Of a stretch of 64,000 nucleotides of DNA, positions 43,170 to 52,665 are shown one piece after another. This stretch comes from Gracilinema caldarium DSM 7334. GTDB taxonomy: Bacteria; Spirochaetota; Spirochaetia; Treponematales; Breznakiellaceae. The notes beneath the pieces are model-generated. The model was not told the DNA's origin, made no database searches, and was given only the letters and a program-made list of their open reading frames with translations. The stretch is taken from positions 1,116,001 to 1,180,000 of the forward strand of contig NC_015732.1 in NCBI RefSeq assembly GCF_000219725.1. The letters run 5' to 3'. The position numbers and the translations under genes were made by a program. Position 1 is the stretch's first letter. Every line of letters begins with the position of its first letter.

Positions 43170-44441
43170 TTATTCAATTTTCTGAATTTCGATAATTCGT
43201 TTGGAAAGATTTTCTGCACCAATGAGAGCCTTTAGGCTTTCTTTTGCTGGATCATATCGAGAATCAATCCTTAGGGCGGCTTCCCAACTTTTTATTGCTA
43301 TATTGGTATCACCCTTCGCGTAGGCTTCAAGCCCTGCAAGATAGAGGGCTTCTACCTGTTTTGCCCTTTCTCCCCGTCCCTGGTCACCAAAGTTGAATTT
43401 TAATCCTACACTTACCCTATTGAGGGGTTGTAATTGGGTTAATAGGTCTAGGGTATAGTTAACATCTATCATGATTGTGGATACTGAAATAGCACTGCCG
43501 ATAGTAATACGAATATTTCCTGTTTTATACAAGAGACCAGTACGCATGCCGAGAAAGTCGGTTATTTGTGCGGATATTCCCGTTGCCCAATAGGGTTGTT
43601 CTGAAAGTTCCGGATTCATGAGATTAATAGGTACTGTTGTATCAAAGGACCATTGAATTGGTCGTATTGGTTTATAAGCGATAGCAAATACCGCTTCTGT
43701 GGGAAGCGGATCGCCCTGAGCTGGAAAACCAAGATTTTTAACTACAATTGCAAAGGAAGTGTTTTTTTCTCTGCTATAATAGAATTTAAGCAAATTAATT
43801 CGAGTTAAAGCGCCGATGTCAATCATGGGCGCAATAGTTGATTGCTCTGCACCGGATCCACTGCGAATAACCCCAGTGTCATCTGCATAGTCAGGGACTA
43901 ATCGAACCGCAGTCTTTACATTTGTCCCTAGAGATATGCCATAAAAATAATAACCGGCTAAAAAGTTATAGGAAGCATTCAATATCATGACTGCTTCAGA
44001 ATAAAATCCTTTCGAAGCCCGTTCTCCATAATCGTTATATTCAGTAAAGGGGAGATAGAGCCACTTCCCGCCAATTCCTAATCCTAAATTACCCATTCTT
44101 TGGGTATAAACCAATCCTTCTATTTTTGAATCTGCAATCCAGTTGTTATGATAGAATGAAAGTTCCGTATTGGCTAACATGGAAGATCCTGCGGGGTTCC
44201 ATTCGATATAAGAGGTATCGTCGGCAACAGCCGCAAAAGCTGTTGCTAGCCCTTCTGACCTGCCCCCCATCGGTATGGAGAGTATTGGAAGCGTTGTAAG
44301 TCCCTGGTTGGAATCAATACCGTTTATTGATAGTATATAATCGGTAATAGAACCATAAAATGTATTGTTTACATCGAGAGCATAAAGTGGAATTATGAGA
44401 ATCACTAATACTATACTAAAAAGTATCTGCAAATGTTTCAT
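43170..44441 (-). CDS. UPF0164/FadL-like outer-membrane protein
   Basis: A 423-residue protein with a signal peptide (KHLQILFSIVLVILIIPLYA). PMGGRSEGLATAFAAVADDT and SYIEWNPAGSSMLANTELSF are the N-terminal signature of PorV/FadL-related barrels and of the Treponema pallidum UPF0164 family, thought to be outer-membrane barrels that import lipids. Alternating strands continue to about residue 345, ending with LNRVSVGLKFNF. The last 60 residues are a single TPR-like helix pair (LYLAGLEAYAKGDTNIAIKS), an addition at the periplasmic end. It diverges from the large repeat-protein gene. Confidence 0.82.
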   Translation of the reverse strand: MKHLQILFSIVLVILIIPLYALDVNNTFYGSITDYILSINGIDSNQGLTTLPILSIPMGGRSEGLATAFAAVADDTSYIEWNPAGSSMLANTELSFYHNNWIADSKIEGLVYTQRMGNLGLGIGGKWLYLPFTEYNDYGERASKGFYSEAVMILNASYNFLAGYYFYGISLGTNVKTAVRLVPDYADDTGVIRSGSGAEQSTIAPMIDIGALTRINLLKFYYSREKNTSFAIVVKNLGFPAQGDPLPTEAVFAIAYKPIRPIQWSFDTTVPINLMNPELSEQPYWATGISAQITDFLGMRTGLLYKTGNIRITIGSAISVSTIMIDVNYTLDLLTQLQPLNRVSVGLKFNFGDQGRGERAKQVEALYLAGLEAYAKGDTNIAIKSWEAALRIDSRYDPAKESLKALIGAENLSKRIIEIQKIE

Positions 44442-44468
44442 ATGCTCTTAATATAAATATATATCGGT

Positions 44469-44498
44469 TTGAGATATATTTCTACTGTATAGTATAAA
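44469..44498 (+). promoter_or_regulatory. Promoter of the repeat-protein/SpoIIE operon
   Basis: TTGAGA (44469-44474) and TATAAA (44493-44498) are 18 bases apart, 41 bases before the ATG at 44540. A TATATT on the other strand (44450-44455) may be the -10 box of the divergent UPF0164 gene. Confidence 0.55.
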
Positions 44499-44539
44499 AG
44501 TGAGAACTCCGATAAGAAAGTAATGGGTAAACCTTGTTC

Positions 44540-47500
44540 ATGATACGGTGCTTTAAAGCCAGACAGTTCTTTTTTCTCTTTTTAGTTACTCTTATATGGT
44601 TTTTAATATCAGGGCTGGGCAAGGTCTATGCCGAAGGTAAAAAAGAAGATACCCTTTCTACCGCAGATACTCTTATTGCTGAACGGAGATATAATGAAGC
44701 AATTCTACTGTTAACCCAATATATTAAAAATAATCCCGATCGTTTTGATGATGCCCAGCGGAGACTTCAGCGTATTATAAAACTTCGAGAAGATTATAAT
44801 AAAATTGCCGGCGATTTATTAAATATCCTTGTTAGTGATCCTACCAATGATGAACGAAAACTTGCGATGATACGTCAACTGGAAGGTTTGGAAGCAGCCC
44901 CAAACCGAGCTGCACGGGAATTTATTTTAAAAACCAAAGAGACCGCACTTTTTACTTATAACCGTGCACAATTTGAAAAAATAATGGCCGATGGGCGTAC
45001 GCTTATCGATAAAGGCGATTACGGTAACGCTACGAAAAGATATACCGACGGTTTTTCTTTGTATCGGGAAGAATTTTACCAAGCTGGTTATGGTGACATT
45101 GTTGTCAATTCGGTTAATAAGGGTTTAAAAGATATTCAACAATATCTTATAACCTTTAATGCTTTACAACCAGAATTGCAAAAGCGGATCGATACGTTCA
45201 TCAACCTAACTACGACTATTTCCTTTTCGACCAATCTTGAACCAATATTAGAGTCCTATACTGAATTGGAAGCCCTTTTGTATCAATATGCTAATGTAAG
45301 GAATGCCCTTGCCAGCATAGGTAGAGGCTTTGAAAGCCAGTTTGCCCTTCTTCAGAGTGCTGATCCAACTTTAGGTGACAGCTCATTTCTTCCGTTTGCG
45401 TTTCGTTTTATTCTTGGCCGAAAAACTGAAATTCAGCCCGAAGGCATTGTGGGAGCACTGGATACTTTCTGGATTAAGGGGATGAATAGCCTGGAAAACG
45501 CTTTAATCCATTCTCTTAATGGGCTCTATGCTCGCTATTATGATGAATATCAAAATAATCCTCTTGTCCTGGAGGACCCGAAAATAGAAAAACTAAGCGC
45601 GTTAAGTAATTTTACTCTTCGGGTGTTTTCTGTCTGGTCATCGATTGCTGTAAAGGAATTCCAATATCAGGTAACTAATTATGGTAAGTCTATTGCTGTG
45701 AACAAAATACCAATCTATCTTTCAGTTCAGGCTTTGCTTGAAACTACTACTACCCTTAATGATTACTATAAAGTACTAAAGGATTACCTTGTTATTTCAG
45801 AACAACAGAAGATGCTCTTTGAATCATGGAAAGCAGGTCAAGCAAGTCAGGATGGAACGATTGCAGGGCTGCAACGTGGGCGAGAAAATCTCATCAACCT
45901 AAGGAATGCACTAAAAATCTATGAAGATATTGCTGCAAAACGATTGCAAAACTATAGTTTCTATCAGGAAAATGGTATAGATCTTGGATCCGGTATCACC
46001 CAACTTCAGAATGGGGTGAAAAGTCTTGTATTTTTAGAACAACATATAAATGATCAGGAATTGTCTCTGGTTTCTCAAAAATATACTGTTGAAAATGCAG
46101 GCATTACTACTATTCTTAATACCCGTACTACCGCGTATGATAAGGCTCTTAATCTTATACAAGGTATGCAGATATCAACCCAAAATGGGTCAACATATCT
46201 TGCTAAATATCCAAAGGAAAGTCTTCCTCTTTTCAATGAGCTGGATCGTCAGCTTTCAGGAGATATCCAAAAAGCAAGGTCCGTACTTTCTACGTATGCT
46301 GCTGAACCGCTTGTGATTACAAATGACGTAGCTCTTCAAATACTACGGAAGGAGACTTCCGACCTATTGCGAAGACTTGAAGTACTGCAATCTCAGGTAC
46401 GGACAAATAGTAGTATTGCTCAACAGCAGAGTGCTCTGGCAGATAGTCTTAAACTTGAGGGAGATCGTCGCTATCTTGAAGCTCAAACGGCCTTAAGAAA
46501 CCTCAATTTTGATCTTGCGCGACAGCGGCTCCAGCAATCAGGAGAACGTTATGATGCTTCGCTCGCAGTACAGGAATCATTTGAGCTTCGAAGCCTCCGA
46601 GATCAGCGGCTTCTTTCGCTGGCCACAGAAATTTCTAAAACAGAAAATGAAACCGTAGTCCGGGATGTCCGACGCCTTATTACAGAAGCCAAAAGAGCCT
46701 ACTTTACCGGTGATTTTATCAAAGCAGAAGACACCCTGCTACAGGCACAGAATCGCTGGAAAACTACCAATGTGGATGATGAACCGGAAGTCGCCTATTG
46801 GCTTACCCTGGCTCGTAGTGCTCTTTCAATTAAGACTGGCCGTACTATTCCAATTACAGCGCCGCTCTACCCCGAAATGAGCCAATTATTAAATGCTGCT
46901 CAGCAAGCCTTTGAGGCAGGAAGATCTCTTTTGGCAGCTAAAAAACGTACGGAGGCTCTTGAACAATTTGATATTGCCCGTAAGAAAATTCAAGAGGTGC
47001 GGATCCTTTTCCCCCTTAATCAGGAAGCGGGTTTATTGGAACTTCAGATTGATCAACTGATAGATCCGGCAGCCTTTGCAGCCAATTTCAGGGACCGGCT
47101 CAGTGCTGCTCAGGCAAAACTTGCTGCACAGCCCCAGGAAGGCTATGCTGAACTTCAGGATCTTTATACCATCAACCCAAACTATCCGGGGCTCAAAGCA
47201 ATCATAGAACGGGCTGAAATACAGTTAGGCCTCAGATTGCCGCCGCCGGATCCAAGGGCTATAGCCCGATCCAATGAGCTTGTGGCTGCGGCCAAACGAA
47301 TTATCGATACCAATACCCGCAGTCAATTCCCGGTTGCCCTGGCCCAGCTCAATGAGGCCCTTAAGTTAAATCCCAATAATGAACAGGCGGTGGCCCTCAA
47401 GGACCGGATACAGACCGATGTGGGTGGTCAGGCTACGGTGGTGCTGTCCAGTGCTGCGGAACGGGAATACCAGCGGGCAGTCCAGGAACTGCAGAATGGA

Positions 47501-47608
47501 AATACGATCGTGGCCCTTGCAATTGTGGAACAACTGTTGCAGGATCCAAAGAATAAAAACTCGACCAAACTGGTTGAACTGCAAAAGAGGATTCAGTCGA
47601 GGCTATGA
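44540..47608 (+). CDS. Large exported helical/TPR repeat protein
   Basis: A 1022-residue protein with an N-terminal signal or anchor (ARQFFFLFLVTLIWFLISGL). The rest is almost wholly helical. TPR-like pairs are seen at the start (TADTLIAERRYNEAILLLTQYIKNNPDRFDDA), around residue 700-800 (LRNLNFDLARQRLQQSGERY, AKRAYFTGDFIKAEDTLLQA) and at the end (EYQRAVQELQNGNTIVALAI). The long middle part has coiled-coil character. No enzyme motifs are visible. Its stop overlaps the start of the receptor-phosphatase gene by four bases, which suggests the two act together at the membrane, perhaps as scaffold and sensor. A TTG at 44534 is an alternative start. Confidence 0.8.
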   Translation: MIRCFKARQFFFLFLVTLIWFLISGLGKVYAEGKKEDTLSTADTLIAERRYNEAILLLTQYIKNNPDRFDDAQRRLQRIIKLREDYNKIAGDLLNILVSDPTNDERKLAMIRQLEGLEAAPNRAAREFILKTKETALFTYNRAQFEKIMADGRTLIDKGDYGNATKRYTDGFSLYREEFYQAGYGDIVVNSVNKGLKDIQQYLITFNALQPELQKRIDTFINLTTTISFSTNLEPILESYTELEALLYQYANVRNALASIGRGFESQFALLQSADPTLGDSSFLPFAFRFILGRKTEIQPEGIVGALDTFWIKGMNSLENALIHSLNGLYARYYDEYQNNPLVLEDPKIEKLSALSNFTLRVFSVWSSIAVKEFQYQVTNYGKSIAVNKIPIYLSVQALLETTTTLNDYYKVLKDYLVISEQQKMLFESWKAGQASQDGTIAGLQRGRENLINLRNALKIYEDIAAKRLQNYSFYQENGIDLGSGITQLQNGVKSLVFLEQHINDQELSLVSQKYTVENAGITTILNTRTTAYDKALNLIQGMQISTQNGSTYLAKYPKESLPLFNELDRQLSGDIQKARSVLSTYAAEPLVITNDVALQILRKETSDLLRRLEVLQSQVRTNSSIAQQQSALADSLKLEGDRRYLEAQTALRNLNFDLARQRLQQSGERYDASLAVQESFELRSLRDQRLLSLATEISKTENETVVRDVRRLITEAKRAYFTGDFIKAEDTLLQAQNRWKTTNVDDEPEVAYWLTLARSALSIKTGRTIPITAPLYPEMSQLLNAAQQAFEAGRSLLAAKKRTEALEQFDIARKKIQEVRILFPLNQEAGLLELQIDQLIDPAAFAANFRDRLSAAQAKLAAQPQEGYAELQDLYTINPNYPGLKAIIERAEIQLGLRLPPPDPRAIARSNELVAAAKRIIDTNTRSQFPVALAQLNEALKLNPNNEQAVALKDRIQTDVGGQATVVLSSAAEREYQRAVQELQNGNTIVALAIVEQLLQDPKNKNSTKLVELQKRIQSRL

Positions 47609-50600
47609 AAAAACTGGCGGCCCTTTATCAATGTTTACCCTCTTTACTGCTTCTCCTTTGCGGTATGCTGGTTGCTCCGGCTTTGTTTGGACAGGACGTA
47701 TTTTATTGGGAAAATCCGGTGCTGTTCAGCCCCGGTGCGGCACGGTTTCCCGTAAGCTCTACCAATGGCAAGCTTTCAGTTCTCCTGTGGCAAGAATCGA
47801 ATGCTTCAACCATAACCCTCTCACTGGCAGTAAAAACTCCTGACCAGGACTGGGTTATACGGCGATCCATTGCAGGTCCTTATCCTTACTCCGGTAGTGA
47901 ACCAGCTATTGCTTCGGTGGTAGTTGATGCGAGGGATAGAATCATTATTGCGGTAGGGCTTCCCTCGAACGAAACAGAAATTCTTATTTCTAACGATCAG
48001 GGTCTCAGTTTTTCTGCAATGCGACTTAAGGGAGATATTAATTCAACTATTTCCCCTCGGATCGTAACGAGGTCCGATGGGGGTTATTACCTTTTTGTAA
48101 CCCGTGGACAGGAGCAGAGCCTTTCTATTTTTTATTCCCGTTCTGAAGATGGCTTAACCTGGACCGATTTCACCCCCTTCGTTAGCGATTCCCGGCTTAA
48201 GCTGACCTTTCTGCCAAGCCATACCACCCTGGGTTCTACCGACTATGTGGTATTTCAAGCCCTTACCGGTGATGTACGGCCTACCTTTCAACTTTTTATG
48301 ACCACCAGTTCCGATGGGGGCCGTAACTGGACTTCTCCCCGCCAGGTTACCAATTTCCTGGATCCCTATGTGGCAAATCGACGGGAACCGGAATATTTCG
48401 ATAACCAGCGCCCTTTCATCTTAGGAGCAAAAAACACCCTGTTCCTTGTGTGGGAACGGAGACCCAGCAATGGAAATCCCCAAGTGTATGGAATGGAACT
48501 TAAGCCGGACGGCCAAATCCTCGGTACTGCTGAACAGATTAGTCCCCGGGGTGTTTATGCAAATAATCCTGTGGTCCTTCCTGTTAACGGCCGCTGGACC
48601 GTCTTTTGGTTCGATAACCGCCGTGGTCAAAACCGTATTTATATGGCTCAGAAAAAGGGGCTTGACTGGGAAGACACGGACCTGTCAGCCTCGAGCGGGG
48701 AAGCAACCTTTGCCCGGCCCATACTTGACCGCTCAGGCCTTTATGTTTTCTGGCAAACCCAGCGAGCATCTCAAAACCGGCTGGTCCTGCTTGCCCCCGA
48801 TACTACCGTAGCAAAGCCGCCTCTCCGGCCGCTTAATTTTAAAAATGGTGAACGGTTGCGGACGGATAAGGTGCAGATTGCCTGGTCCATGCCGGAAGAT
48901 TCTTCTGGTATTTTAGGGTACTCGTATATATGGACGAGGGATCCCGAAGAAGTTCCCCCTAAAACAATTAAGGTATATGCTACCACCACAAGGACCGAAC
49001 AGTTCGCCCAGGAAGACGGCCCCTGGTACTTTGCAATACGGGCCCAAGACTTTGCGGGCAACTGGTCTGATCCCAGCATCGTATATTTTATCCGCGACAC
49101 CACGCCGCCCCCTGCAGCCAGTATTATCGGTCCTGATATTGATGAGAATGGTTTCCTCATATCAAACACCTTTACCATTCAATGGAACCCTCCACCAGCT
49201 TCGGATGTGGGAGGGTATACCTGGAACCTGGAATACCTTGGTCCCGGTGACCTGTTCGGACAGCTTTCTTTAGCCGATTTTGAAACTAAGCTGAAAGCCA
49301 CCTATCCTTCTGTATCCAGCCCAGTGCGCTTTATGGGTAAGGACACCCAGGCATCTTTTACGAACCTTGATAACGGTATATGGCGTTTTACCCTGTCGGT
49401 GGTCGATACGGTGGGCAACATCAGCCAGCCGGCGGTTTATTATTTCAGAACCAATAAATACATTCCCTTTACCATCGTAAGGTATCTGGATGTTAAACAG
49501 GATGAGCAGGGTAAACTCATGGTTACCATTTTAGGGCGCGGATACCTGGAAGGGGGCAACATTACCTCCATATTCATCGACCGGGATGGGTTAGCGCCCT
49601 ATGACCGGGAATATTTCCTCGAACAAGGCCATTACCGCATCGTTTCTGATCGGGAAATAGGAGGAATCACCGTGGAGGACCTGGACGCAGGATCATACCA
49701 CATAGGGCTCGTCCATTCCGGACGGGGCCTTTACAGAACCGGTCCTCTACTTCAGGTTGATGAAATGGGCACGGTGAAGTTTGGTGACTTTACCCAGGTT
49801 TGGCAGCCCTCCTGGTCACGTGCACCAAAGCGAACATTCACCGTAGATGTGGCATTGTTCAGCGTCTTTGCCATCATCATGTTTGCATTATTGGGATTAT
49901 TCATAGCAGTCCGGGGCATTGGTAGTGTAGTAGCCGAAACAGCCATGCTCAGGATGGATGCGGTTGCCCTCATTACAGGAGAGCCTATGACAGTAGAAAA
50001 ACAAAAAGCAGTCACCCGTATTAAGCGCCGGGGTATGGGCCTTGGTATTAAATTGGCGATATTTACCATCATCCTCGTCAGTATGGTGGTTCTCATGGTA
50101 TCGGTGCCCCTCACCCTTATGATGACCCGCACACAGGAACGGACCCTGCTTCAGGGTCTCCGAGACCGTTCCAGGGTATTGCTGGAAAGTCTCGCCTCCG
50201 GTGCCCGGGCTTACCTGCCTGCTCAGAATGTTCTTGAATTGGGCTTCCTTCCGGCCCAAACTTCAGCGGTTCCGGAAGCAATCTATGCGACTATTACTGG
50301 CTTTGGTGCCAGGGTAACCATTTTCTCAGACCATGTATGGGCTACTAATGACCCGGACATCCTCACCAAGATTGATACTCCCGAATTCCAGCCCGGCCTT
50401 TCCCGGCTAAAGGATCCGATCAGTCCCAGGATTGCTTCTATTGCTCAAGAACTGGATGAACAGGCTCGTTCTGAAGTTGGCGATATATCAAAAACCATTG
50501 CAGATCTTACCCGGGAAGCCTTAACCCTTGCCCTAAAAACCGATGCTGAAAGTGTGCGCCGGCGGGATGATATCCAGACAACTACCCGGAATCTGGAAGC

Positions 50601-52176
50601 TCGTCTCAACGAAAAATTAACCCAGCTGGCCTCAAATATTGGCTCCGAACCAGAGTTTCCCACAGATAAACTGCCCCCTAAAGGTCAGTCACGGTACATA
50701 TTCTTTAAGCCAGTACTCTACCGGCAGGGTGCTGATGATCTGTATTTCCGCGGTCTCGTCCGTCTCGAAGTTACCATCGATTCCATCTATGCCCAGGTCG
50801 ATTCGGGTCGTCGATCTCTTGTACAGGTGACCGCCCTCATCGCCCTCATCGCCCTTGTTATCGGTGTCATTGGAGCAATCCTTGTATCAGTGTATATTGT
50901 CAGCCCCATTCTCAAACTGGTAGAACATGTAAAAAAAATAAAAGATACGGAAGATAAATCAGAACTTGAGGGTCATGAAATTTCGATAAAATCGAGGGAT
51001 GAAATAGCAGTTCTGGGAGATACCATCAATGAAATGACCCATGGTCTGGTAAAGGCTGCATTGGCCTCTAAAGACCTAACCATCGGTAAAGAGGTCCAGA
51101 AGAAATTTATCCCCCTGGAAACCGATGCCCAGGGAAACAAACTGACCACAGGGCATCTCGATGCCAAATATGCAGAATTCTTTGGTTATTATGAAGGCGC
51201 AAAGGGTGTCTCTGGTGACTACTTTGATTACATCAACCTGGATGACCGCTATTTTGCCGTTATTAAGTGCGACGTGGCTGGTAAGGGGGTCCCGGCAGCC
51301 CTCATCATGGTCCAGGTTGCCACCCTGTTCCTGAACAGTTTCCGTAACTGGAAACCCACCCCAGAGGGGCTTAACATTTCTCGGGTGGTCTATGAAATTA
51401 ATGACCTATTGGAAAAACTAAAATTCAAAGGCCGTTTTGCTGCCTTTACCCTCTGTCTTTTCGATTCCCAAACCGGACTGGTTCGGTTCTGTAACGCCGG
51501 AGACAATATCGTTCATTGGTTCGATGCTTCTTCCGGCAGTCTTCAGACCCTGACGTTGCCCCCATCCCCTGCGGCAGGGGTCCTTGATAATGACCTCATC
51601 GATATGAAAGGGGGATATCAGATTCAAACCCTTCAGCTCGATCCGGGGGATGTACTGTTCCTCTACACTGACGGTATCGAAGAAGCAAAGCGGAACTTCA
51701 GAAACAGTACTTATGAGGTTATTACCTGTACCGAAGGAGAAAACGGTACAGCCCATGGCAATCATGTAGCTGGACAGAGCGACGAGGAACTTGGATACGA
51801 CCGGGTTTCGGCCATTATTGATGCGGTCTTTAACCGCAGACTGTTTATCCTAGAAAAGTACCATAATCCTGATAGTGAACAGAAACTGGTTTTTGATTTT
51901 ACCACCTGTCAAGGTACCATCACTGAGGCTGTCATGGCCCTCGTGTCGGTGGAGAAAATATTCCGGCTCTATAAGGACCCTGCTTGTCGGCCTGATGAAC
52001 GTATTCTCGTAGACAAAAAGATTGATGAATTCCTGAAGGCTCATTTTAAGCAATATGGATTTTATATTCAGGAAAAGATGGAAAATGCACAACAAAAAGA
52101 GTACCTTTATTACATGGGCCTTCGAGAGGATGAACAGTATGACGATTTAACAATCCTTGGAATTCGAAGGAAATAG
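47605..52176 (+). CDS. Membrane receptor with beta-propeller/Fn3 ectodomain and SpoIIE (PP2C) phosphatase
   Basis: A 1523-residue sensor phosphatase. Order: signal peptide (1-29); sialidase/BNR-like propeller (about 35-390; FSRSEDGLTW-like FYSRSEDGLTWTDF and TTSSDGGRNW blades); two Fn3-like modules (about 400-650); membrane segment 1 (about 746-770); cytoplasmic stretch; membrane segment 2 (about 817-840); a second extracytoplasmic domain (about 845-1070); membrane segment 3 (about 1073-1100); HAMP; PP2C domain. Phosphatase motifs are GVSGDYFDY, KCDVAGKGVPAALIM, FCNAGDNIVHW, LYTDGIEEAKR and the terminal YDDLTILGI, so all metal Asp are present. It would remove phosphate from Ser/Thr of a partner, often an anti-sigma antagonist, in response to an outside signal. 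No kinase or antagonist gene adjoins it. Confidence 0.9.
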   Translation: MKKLAALYQCLPSLLLLLCGMLVAPALFGQDVFYWENPVLFSPGAARFPVSSTNGKLSVLLWQESNASTITLSLAVKTPDQDWVIRRSIAGPYPYSGSEPAIASVVVDARDRIIIAVGLPSNETEILISNDQGLSFSAMRLKGDINSTISPRIVTRSDGGYYLFVTRGQEQSLSIFYSRSEDGLTWTDFTPFVSDSRLKLTFLPSHTTLGSTDYVVFQALTGDVRPTFQLFMTTSSDGGRNWTSPRQVTNFLDPYVANRREPEYFDNQRPFILGAKNTLFLVWERRPSNGNPQVYGMELKPDGQILGTAEQISPRGVYANNPVVLPVNGRWTVFWFDNRRGQNRIYMAQKKGLDWEDTDLSASSGEATFARPILDRSGLYVFWQTQRASQNRLVLLAPDTTVAKPPLRPLNFKNGERLRTDKVQIAWSMPEDSSGILGYSYIWTRDPEEVPPKTIKVYATTTRTEQFAQEDGPWYFAIRAQDFAGNWSDPSIVYFIRDTTPPPAASIIGPDIDENGFLISNTFTIQWNPPPASDVGGYTWNLEYLGPGDLFGQLSLADFETKLKATYPSVSSPVRFMGKDTQASFTNLDNGIWRFTLSVVDTVGNISQPAVYYFRTNKYIPFTIVRYLDVKQDEQGKLMVTILGRGYLEGGNITSIFIDRDGLAPYDREYFLEQGHYRIVSDREIGGITVEDLDAGSYHIGLVHSGRGLYRTGPLLQVDEMGTVKFGDFTQVWQPSWSRAPKRTFTVDVALFSVFAIIMFALLGLFIAVRGIGSVVAETAMLRMDAVALITGEPMTVEKQKAVTRIKRRGMGLGIKLAIFTIILVSMVVLMVSVPLTLMMTRTQERTLLQGLRDRSRVLLESLASGARAYLPAQNVLELGFLPAQTSAVPEAIYATITGFGARVTIFSDHVWATNDPDILTKIDTPEFQPGLSRLKDPISPRIASIAQELDEQARSEVGDISKTIADLTREALTLALKTDAESVRRRDDIQTTTRNLEARLNEKLTQLASNIGSEPEFPTDKLPPKGQSRYIFFKPVLYRQGADDLYFRGLVRLEVTIDSIYAQVDSGRRSLVQVTALIALIALVIGVIGAILVSVYIVSPILKLVEHVKKIKDTEDKSELEGHEISIKSRDEIAVLGDTINEMTHGLVKAALASKDLTIGKEVQKKFIPLETDAQGNKLTTGHLDAKYAEFFGYYEGAKGVSGDYFDYINLDDRYFAVIKCDVAGKGVPAALIMVQVATLFLNSFRNWKPTPEGLNISRVVYEINDLLEKLKFKGRFAAFTLCLFDSQTGLVRFCNAGDNIVHWFDASSGSLQTLTLPPSPAAGVLDNDLIDMKGGYQIQTLQLDPGDVLFLYTDGIEEAKRNFRNSTYEVITCTEGENGTAHGNHVAGQSDEELGYDRVSAIIDAVFNRRLFILEKYHNPDSEQKLVFDFTTCQGTITEAVMALVSVEKIFRLYKDPACRPDERILVDKKIDEFLKAHFKQYGFYIQEKMENAQQKEYLYYMGLREDEQYDDLTILGIRRK

Positions 52177-52188
52177 GAGATATTTGCT

Positions 52189-52497
52189 ATGTCATTTGGT
52201 GATAAACTGAAAGGGTATTTTGGAAAAGGAATGGAAACAACCCGGGATCTCATGGCAAAGGCTGGAGCAAAGGCACAGGATTTAGGAGAGAAGGGTGTTT
52301 TAAAGCTGGAAATAGCTCAGCTACAGGGACAGGTGCAGAAATTACTTGGTCGTCTTGGTTCTGAGGTATATACTGCCTTTGTCGATAAAGGTATCGATAC
52401 AATTTCTTTTTCAGATCCAGAAATTAAAGCTCTTATTGATCAGATAGCAGACTTAAAAAAATCGATTGAAAAACGAGAAAATGAGTTAAGAAATTAA
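52189..52497 (+). CDS. Small coiled-coil protein of unknown function
   Basis: A 102-residue cytoplasmic protein. The N-terminal 35 residues are Gly/Lys/Ala-rich and amphipathic (GDKLKGYFGKGMETTRDLMA); two heptad-like segments follow (LEIAQLQGQVQKLLGRLGSE and IADLKKSIEKRENELRN). No STAS or anti-sigma signature is visible. It begins 12 bases after the phosphatase gene with AGGAGA before the ATG, so it belongs to the same operon and may be a substrate or adaptor; that is inference. Confidence 0.8.
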   Translation: MSFGDKLKGYFGKGMETTRDLMAKAGAKAQDLGEKGVLKLEIAQLQGQVQKLLGRLGSEVYTAFVDKGIDTISFSDPEIKALIDQIADLKKSIEKRENELRN

Positions 52498-52609: not shown

Positions 52610-52638
52610 TTGACAAGATACAAGAATCGTACTAGTAT
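52610..52638 (+). promoter_or_regulatory. Promoter of the sugar ABC importer
   Basis: A perfect TTGACA (52610-52615) and TAGTAT (52633-52638) are 17 bases apart. The LacI-type palindrome begins five bases after the -10 box, over the expected transcript start. The rest of the gap from 52498 holds nothing I can name. Confidence 0.85.
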
Positions 52639-52643
52639 ATCTG

Positions 52644-52665
52644 AAAGCGCAATCGATTGCGCTTT
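52644..52665 (+). promoter_or_regulatory. LacI-family operator
   Basis: A perfect 22-base palindrome with half-site AAAGCGCAATC. The A-rich arm, central CG and overall form are those of operators bound by LacI/GalR-family repressors. Its place over the start point predicts repression until a sugar signal is bound. The matching repressor gene is not in the window. Confidence 0.85.

Follow-up and report, generated by a model that had tools for sequence, protein, structure and literature searches.

What does a spirochete read with a protein that carries a lectin-like propeller on one side of the membrane and a protein phosphatase on the other? The question is raised by a gene pair of Gracilinema caldarium DSM 7334, whose genome is a single contig of 3,239,340 bases. 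The window analyzed here is a stretch of 64,000 nucleotides of this contig (NC_015732.1, positions 1,116,001 to 1,180,000), and plain coordinates below are those of the window. The pair encodes an exported repeat protein of 1022 residues (P0001) and a membrane protein of 1523 residues (P0002). This locus probably provides a partner-switching system of the RsbU/RsbV type with its input arm on the envelope side, P0002 being the receptor phosphatase. Its features are the following.

43170-44441, minus strand: UPF0164 (PF03687) gene, predicted outer-membrane beta-barrel of FadL/PorV-like type, 423 residues with a TPR at the C-terminus, in the position of TP0856 (Pfam, TPR matches, position, co-occurrence).
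44442-44539, no strand: short intergenic stretch that separates the UPF0164 gene from the divergently oriented P0001-P0002 pair.
44540-47608, plus strand: P0001, exported all-alpha TPR/long coiled-coil protein, 1022 residues, in the position of TP0855 (signal peptide, AlphaFold2, TPR matches).
47605-52176, plus strand: P0002, putative receptor phosphatase, 1523 residues, in the position of TP0854.
47707-48804, plus strand: P0002 residues 35-400, beta-propeller, with seven-bladed PLL/PHL lectins, CylK and sialidase/glycoside hydrolase (GH) propellers as best structural matches (VIA-align, Foldseek, profile match).
48817-49764, plus strand: P0002 residues 405-720, two Fn3/Ig-like domains plus one more beta domain (AlphaFold2 strands; weak chitinase Fn3 and Big_13-type matches).
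49849-49905, plus strand: first transmembrane segment (TM1) of P0002, residues 749-767 (hydropathy).
50053-50109, plus strand: TM2, residues 817-835 (hydropathy).
50122-50814, plus strand: P0002 residues 840-1070, extracytoplasmic Cache-like domain with a helical insertion (AlphaFold2 alpha/beta fold; sCache_3_2 in a remote homologue).
50836-50892, plus strand: TM3, residues 1078-1096 (hydropathy).
50893-51048, plus strand: HAMP domain of P0002, residues 1097-1148 (PF00672).
51187-52173, plus strand: PP2C/SpoIIE domain of P0002, residues 1195-1523, with about 95 inserted residues ahead of the final DD motif (PF07228, invariant Asp/Gly, alignment to 3ke6).
52189-52497, plus strand: P0003, coiled-coil protein of 102 residues, a neighbor judged to lie outside the core system (distribution, linkage).

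The N-terminus of P0002 is a signal peptide, after which hydropathy gives three peaks, and its parts follow in the order propeller, Fn3/Ig domains, TM1, cytoplasmic loop, TM2, Cache-like loop, TM3, HAMP and PP2C. Pfam places the SpoIIE/PP2C family (PF07228) at residues 1214-1371 with 91.6 bits. The HAMP match scores 24.8 bits, just below the cut-off of 25, and reaches 39.5 bits in a remote homologue; BNR_2 (4e-5) is also below its cut-off and Big_13 is weak. Across 33 orthologues there is no change in D1205, D1223, G1226, D1356-G1357 and D1513-D1514 of the PP2C domain. With its fold and the conserved metal-binding aspartates the domain is of the SpoIIE/RsbU type, and it aligns with the PP2C domain of Rv1364c (3ke6). 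The insertion that precedes the DD motif is absent from the remote homologue, where PF07228 matches over its full length.

An AlphaFold2 model of residues 28-1160, based on 38 sequences (pLDDT 83.7), contains the propeller and beta-sandwich domains; the extracytoplasmic loop that connects TM2 with TM3 is modeled as an alpha/beta fold. For this Cache-like region, sCache_3_2 matches a remote homologue (locus L136) at 5.3e-9. The fold comparison of the model was filled by propeller matches, the Fn3, Cache-like and PP2C parts being barely covered. A histidine kinase identity was rejected, as NCBIfam sensor-kinase models (WalK and others) match only the TM/HAMP stretch, below their cut-offs. Pfam gives no HisKA or REC match in P0002, and the C-terminal domain is a PP2C, so the protein does not belong to the hybrid two-component receptors. 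Read from the sequence, these features support a role of P0002 as a putative outside-to-inside membrane receptor phosphatase.

Is this architecture more than a local accident? A contig search with P0002 as query returned only three near relatives. Among 59 relatives, however, 50 have P0002 matches, with near-full-length orthologues in families f1-f5, and the architecture is not due to chance because full-length orthologues occur throughout the class. Most families of the class Spirochaetia have the locus, Treponema pallidum included (TP0856 / TP0855-TP0854); in the T. pallidum-type genome G045, TP0856 lies beside TP0855-TP0854, as assigned by position. The original prediction had described P0002 as a receptor with a propeller/Fn3 ectodomain, three membrane segments, a second extracytoplasmic domain, HAMP and an intact PP2C, an anatomy borne out by Pfam, hydropathy, AlphaFold2 and the invariant aspartates. 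It had also proposed translational coupling to the 1022-residue exported repeat protein, which agrees with the ATGA overlap of both genes (CTATGA), the signal peptide and TPR of P0001, and the conservation of this partner. Conserved gene order, which it had set as a test, holds for the pair: P0001 and P0002 are adjacent in the genomes of 36 relatives, unlinked in two (G014, G016) and undecided in one more. The pair is recognizable in remote families as well, since a diverged P0002 of about 1330-1440 residues again comes after a TPR protein in f15, f28 and f41.

On what, then, would the phosphatase act? A candidate comes from the remote families f17 and f35, in eight genomes of which a STAS gene follows the phosphatase gene (phosphatase of 1141-1181 residues). 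The operon lies on one contig in G074, G116, G122, G103 and G085 and is split over two contigs in G110; the others are G061 and G095. In seven of the eight the phosphatase gene comes after a TPR gene, and in G074 the contig breaks off at the phosphatase gene. In gene order the products are a TPR protein, the propeller/TM/HAMP/PP2C protein, a STAS protein, in most genomes a HATPase_c_2 kinase and, where read, pyruvate:ferredoxin oxidoreductase (read in G122, of the same length in the others). The kinase has 140-144 residues, a HATPase_c_2 match of 1.8e-16 and the N-box DEW-ANIIEH, and is RsbW-like; in G095 its gene was placed by a separate kinase search. We take this layout to be that of an RsbU-RsbV-RsbW module. 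PMC4552016 may be compared. The earlier statement that the receptor gene has no kinase, STAS or anti-sigma gene next to it is right for the window but fails in these eight genomes, where STAS and then, where read, the RsbW-type kinase come next.

The orthologue of this STAS protein in the window genome is a STAS/zinc-ribbon protein of the TP0233 type (G000:C1:262255-262803; Pfam STAS 1.8e-22). In a profile of 247 genomes of the phylum, in which matches at E <= 1e-60 counted as P0002, 38 members of the class hold P0002, 36 of them with the propeller. The STAS/zinc-ribbon orthologue is present in all 38 (62-100% identity), including the propeller-less G257 and G251; neither the Borrelia-like family f7 nor family f13, both without P0002, has it. 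Related species are not independent, so counts are given here without a probability. The P0002-associated STAS orthologues read keep the motif SSTG[IVL]G, which we take to be the phosphoserine motif by analogy with RsbV/SpoIIAA. A STAS antagonist with a conserved serine, as in partner switching, is tied to the phosphatase by adjacency in f17 and f35 and by co-presence in the class. Decay of the phosphosite where P0002 is missing was considered and rejected: the motif is changed in G233 and G102, but G054, G202, G206 and G278 keep SSTGIG.

The following course of events can be proposed. An envelope-borne cue would be read by the lectin-like propeller and the Ig-like domains, together with P0001 and, in most species, the UPF0164 protein; we infer its nature as ligand, the physical contacts and the direction and sign of the signal. 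From there the Cache-like domain and HAMP would relay it to the PP2C domain, which would remove the phosphate from the STAS serine, here that of the unlinked STAS/zinc-ribbon protein. Once dephosphorylated, the STAS protein may release or engage a partner as the output, namely the RsbW-like kinase in the remote relatives and possibly the PspA membrane-stress neighborhood here. A general control of phosphatases of this kind by helical linkers, among them HAMP, has been proposed (PMC12143880).

PspA is a neighbor of the STAS gene in G000 (the window genome), G257, G042, G248, G191, G225, G038, G146 and G180, often with a YbjN/CesT-like gene between them; it is not in those genomes of Treponema type that were read (G037, G245, G171, G054), nor in G039. 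In the window genome the STAS/zinc-ribbon, YbjN/CesT-like and PspA genes form a row (L129, G000:C1:260500-265000), and the STAS-PspA neighborhood recurs in several spirochete families.

Several observations weigh against this assignment. The STAS/zinc-ribbon gene is unlinked to P0002 throughout the class, window genome included, and the protein is kept (53-69%) in five class genomes without P0002 (G054, G202, G206, G266, G278), so that P0002 implies STAS but not the reverse. A search at 1e-7 for the kinase of the remote operons gave no match in the window genome or in T. pallidum; other HATPase_c_2 proteins do exist. The window genome encodes 12 SpoIIE-type phosphatases and has 8 STAS hits, several as neighboring pairs, which makes cross-talk possible. 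On the envelope side, G263 and G283 keep the propeller and P0001 and miss UPF0164, which is therefore not strictly needed. P0002 might thus be a receptor phosphatase whose target is another STAS or some other phosphoprotein, the link of the remote families having been rewired in Spirochaetia. The absence of linkage and of the remote kinase would fit such a rewiring, as would the other STAS proteins, some of which have their own PP2C next door; yet we consider it unlikely in view of the co-presence in 38 of 38 holders, even where the sensor half has been lost. A second candidate substrate is the RsbV-type STAS at 583 kb in T. pallidum, because no rsbU or rsbW adjoins it. At this place (L124, G045:C1:580500-587000) the RsbV-like STAS gene lacks both neighbors, which are present in G037 and in the window genome.

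For the preferred assignment, a partner switch acting on the STAS/zinc-ribbon protein, the question arises of which parts travel together. The propeller-bearing P0002 genomes all have P0001 (36 of 36) and nearly all have UPF0164 (34 of 36), and no class member in the phylum profile has UPF0164 without P0002. In G257 and G251, P0002 exists only from residue 716/740 onward; P0001 and UPF0164 are lost, PP2C and STAS are kept, and the phosphatase gene remains in the same neighborhood with the lost parts gone. As these parts are contiguous, one deletion per lineage could explain the loss. It still happened twice, sparing the TM-Cache-HAMP-PP2C part each time. Separately, G094 and G115 encode 630-residue TM-HAMP-PP2C proteins that resemble the C-terminal half of P0002 and have no propeller (L142, L143); neither genome has a UPF0164 match, and two other genomes of this family, G073 and G127, have propeller as well as UPF0164.

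A more specific version of the proposal, offered tentatively and in our view rather doubtful, is a three-layer outside-in relay. The UPF0164 barrel would contact a periplasmic P0001 rod, P0001 would bear on the P0002 propeller, and the state of the outer membrane, or a lipid or glycan cargo, would set the PP2C activity on the PspA-tied STAS/zinc-ribbon protein. Such a relay would be a spirochete-specific envelope-stress pathway in the role of Rse, Cpx or Rcs.

Could the propeller instead be an enzyme? Its closest folds are the PLL/PHL lectins (VIA-align Z 28-30 over 300 residues), CylK and sialidase/GH propellers, also with Foldseek. In sequence the P0002 profile matches sialidases at 1.4e-7, and the propeller has three Asp-box motifs. 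GH33 sialidases are characterized by a six-bladed propeller, an arginine triad and Asp/Tyr-Glu catalytic residues. No Arg is invariant in the propeller columns among 33 or 38 orthologues, catalytic residues not being mapped structurally, and an active sialidase is therefore unlikely. The T. pallidum orthologue was earlier modeled on sialidases (PMC5956850), and this, the sialidase/GH/PLL fold and the FadL-like nature of the neighboring UPF0164 protein (PMC8407342) could also indicate a sialidase, glycosidase or lectin acting on host or own glycans, in a locus for nutrient scavenging or host interaction with a FadL-like porin, the phosphatase being secondary. Besides the lack of an invariant arginine, it is the invariance of the PP2C residues and the retention of the phosphatase in propeller-less versions that make this quite improbable.

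P0001, the constant companion of the putative receptor, occupies an open reading frame (ORF) of 44534/44540-47608, its 1022 residues being counted from the ATG at 44540. The AlphaFold2 model (pLDDT 86.7) is all helices except for two 4-residue strands, with TPR-like ends and middle helices of up to about 57 residues, and its PDB matches are generic helical repeats only. The T. pallidum counterpart, TP0855, figures among putative outer-membrane proteins in PMC5015957; the P0001 model shows no barrel, which argues against TP0855 as a beta-barrel. In G024 (L053, 6393-6749) P0001 has shrunk to about 134 codons, residues 18-102 being joined to 996-1024, with an intact P0002 downstream; this is either a natural mini-version or an assembly collapse.

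The product of the divergent gene belongs to UPF0164 (PF03687, 173.6 bits, cut-off 21.4), with TPR_2/TPR_11 matches at 364-396. Identity with PorV/PorQ of type IX secretion was rejected (NCBIfam 68.8 bits, below the cut-off of 90; other parts of that system were not searched for). In nearly every locus read, the gene is the divergent neighbor of P0001, even where the outer flanks differ, and it still adjoins P0001 in G016, where P0001 has left P0002. It is this gene, and not that of the 102-residue protein, that is the conserved third gene of the locus.

The original prediction had drawn a three-gene locus with P0003 as third member, target or adaptor. All three ORFs are there, but the third core gene was wrongly chosen and the conserved UPF0164 gene overlooked. 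P0003 is present in 48 of the 59 relatives and lies directly downstream of P0002 mainly in family f1; in families f4 and f5 it is encoded away from P0002, and it is found in genomes without P0002 and was not detected in G037, G040 and G045. It was left out of the core system because its linkage is mainly confined to f1 and it is present without P0002. The same distribution makes it very improbable that P0003 is an adaptor or target of the phosphatase, although its gene comes right after that of P0002 in the window and in many f1 members. Beyond P0003, at 52610-52662, a promoter-like TTGACA-17-TAGTAT is followed by the perfect palindrome GCGCAATCGATTGCGC (52647-52662), which lies upstream of a sugar ABC-transporter operon (from 52700) and looks like a LacI-type operator.

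The input arm proposed here is of interest because its gene set is kept over most of the class, even in the 1.1-Mb T. pallidum-type genome with its mere three SpoIIE phosphatases. If the proposal is right, TP0854-TP0856 share one function, a testable phosphatase substrate is named in the TP0233-type STAS/zinc-ribbon protein, and a spirochete envelope-sensing pathway is suggested. No paper on the function of this locus was found in the open-licence literature; in the papers found, the "sialidase-like" TP0854, the abundant antigen and putative outer-membrane protein TP0855 and the vaccine-candidate FadL TP0856 are mentioned only separately. Partner switches with a PP2C receptor in the membrane are already known. 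The lectin-propeller ectodomain, the nearly constant TPR partner with the outer-membrane barrel, and the breadth in spirochetes seem to be new.

How does the locus compare with known systems? Hybrid two-component receptors carry a Reg_prop propeller and Y_Y_Y domains. P0002 resembles them in its propeller and beta-sandwich ectodomain before the membrane, and a weak Y_Y_Y match occurs in a remote homologue, but it has a PP2C instead of a histidine kinase and a sialidase/lectin-type propeller instead of Reg_prop. With GH33 sialidases and the seven-bladed PLL/PHL lectins it shares the propeller fold and the Asp-boxes; it differs from them in that the propeller, devoid of an invariant Arg, sits in a membrane receptor. 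The FadL-like outer-membrane proteins of T. pallidum (TP0856, TP0858, TP0859, TP0865 and TP0548; PMC8407342, PMC9426418) are of the same family as the gene at 43170-44441, which occupies the same place, but there are five copies there versus one in the window genome, and a link to a phosphatase is unmentioned in the papers found. With RsbU-type partner switches the likeness extends to an RsbW-type kinase, found in the remote operons of P0002 relatives. The closest layout is that of the membrane RsbU of Chlamydia trachomatis (PMC4552016), with an extracytoplasmic sensor, HAMP, a cytosolic PP2C and a STAS antagonist. In contrast to it, P0002 has an additional TM before the Cache-like sensor, which carries a large ectodomain of lectin-like propeller and Fn3/Ig domains, and has a nearly constant TPR partner and usually an outer-membrane barrel.

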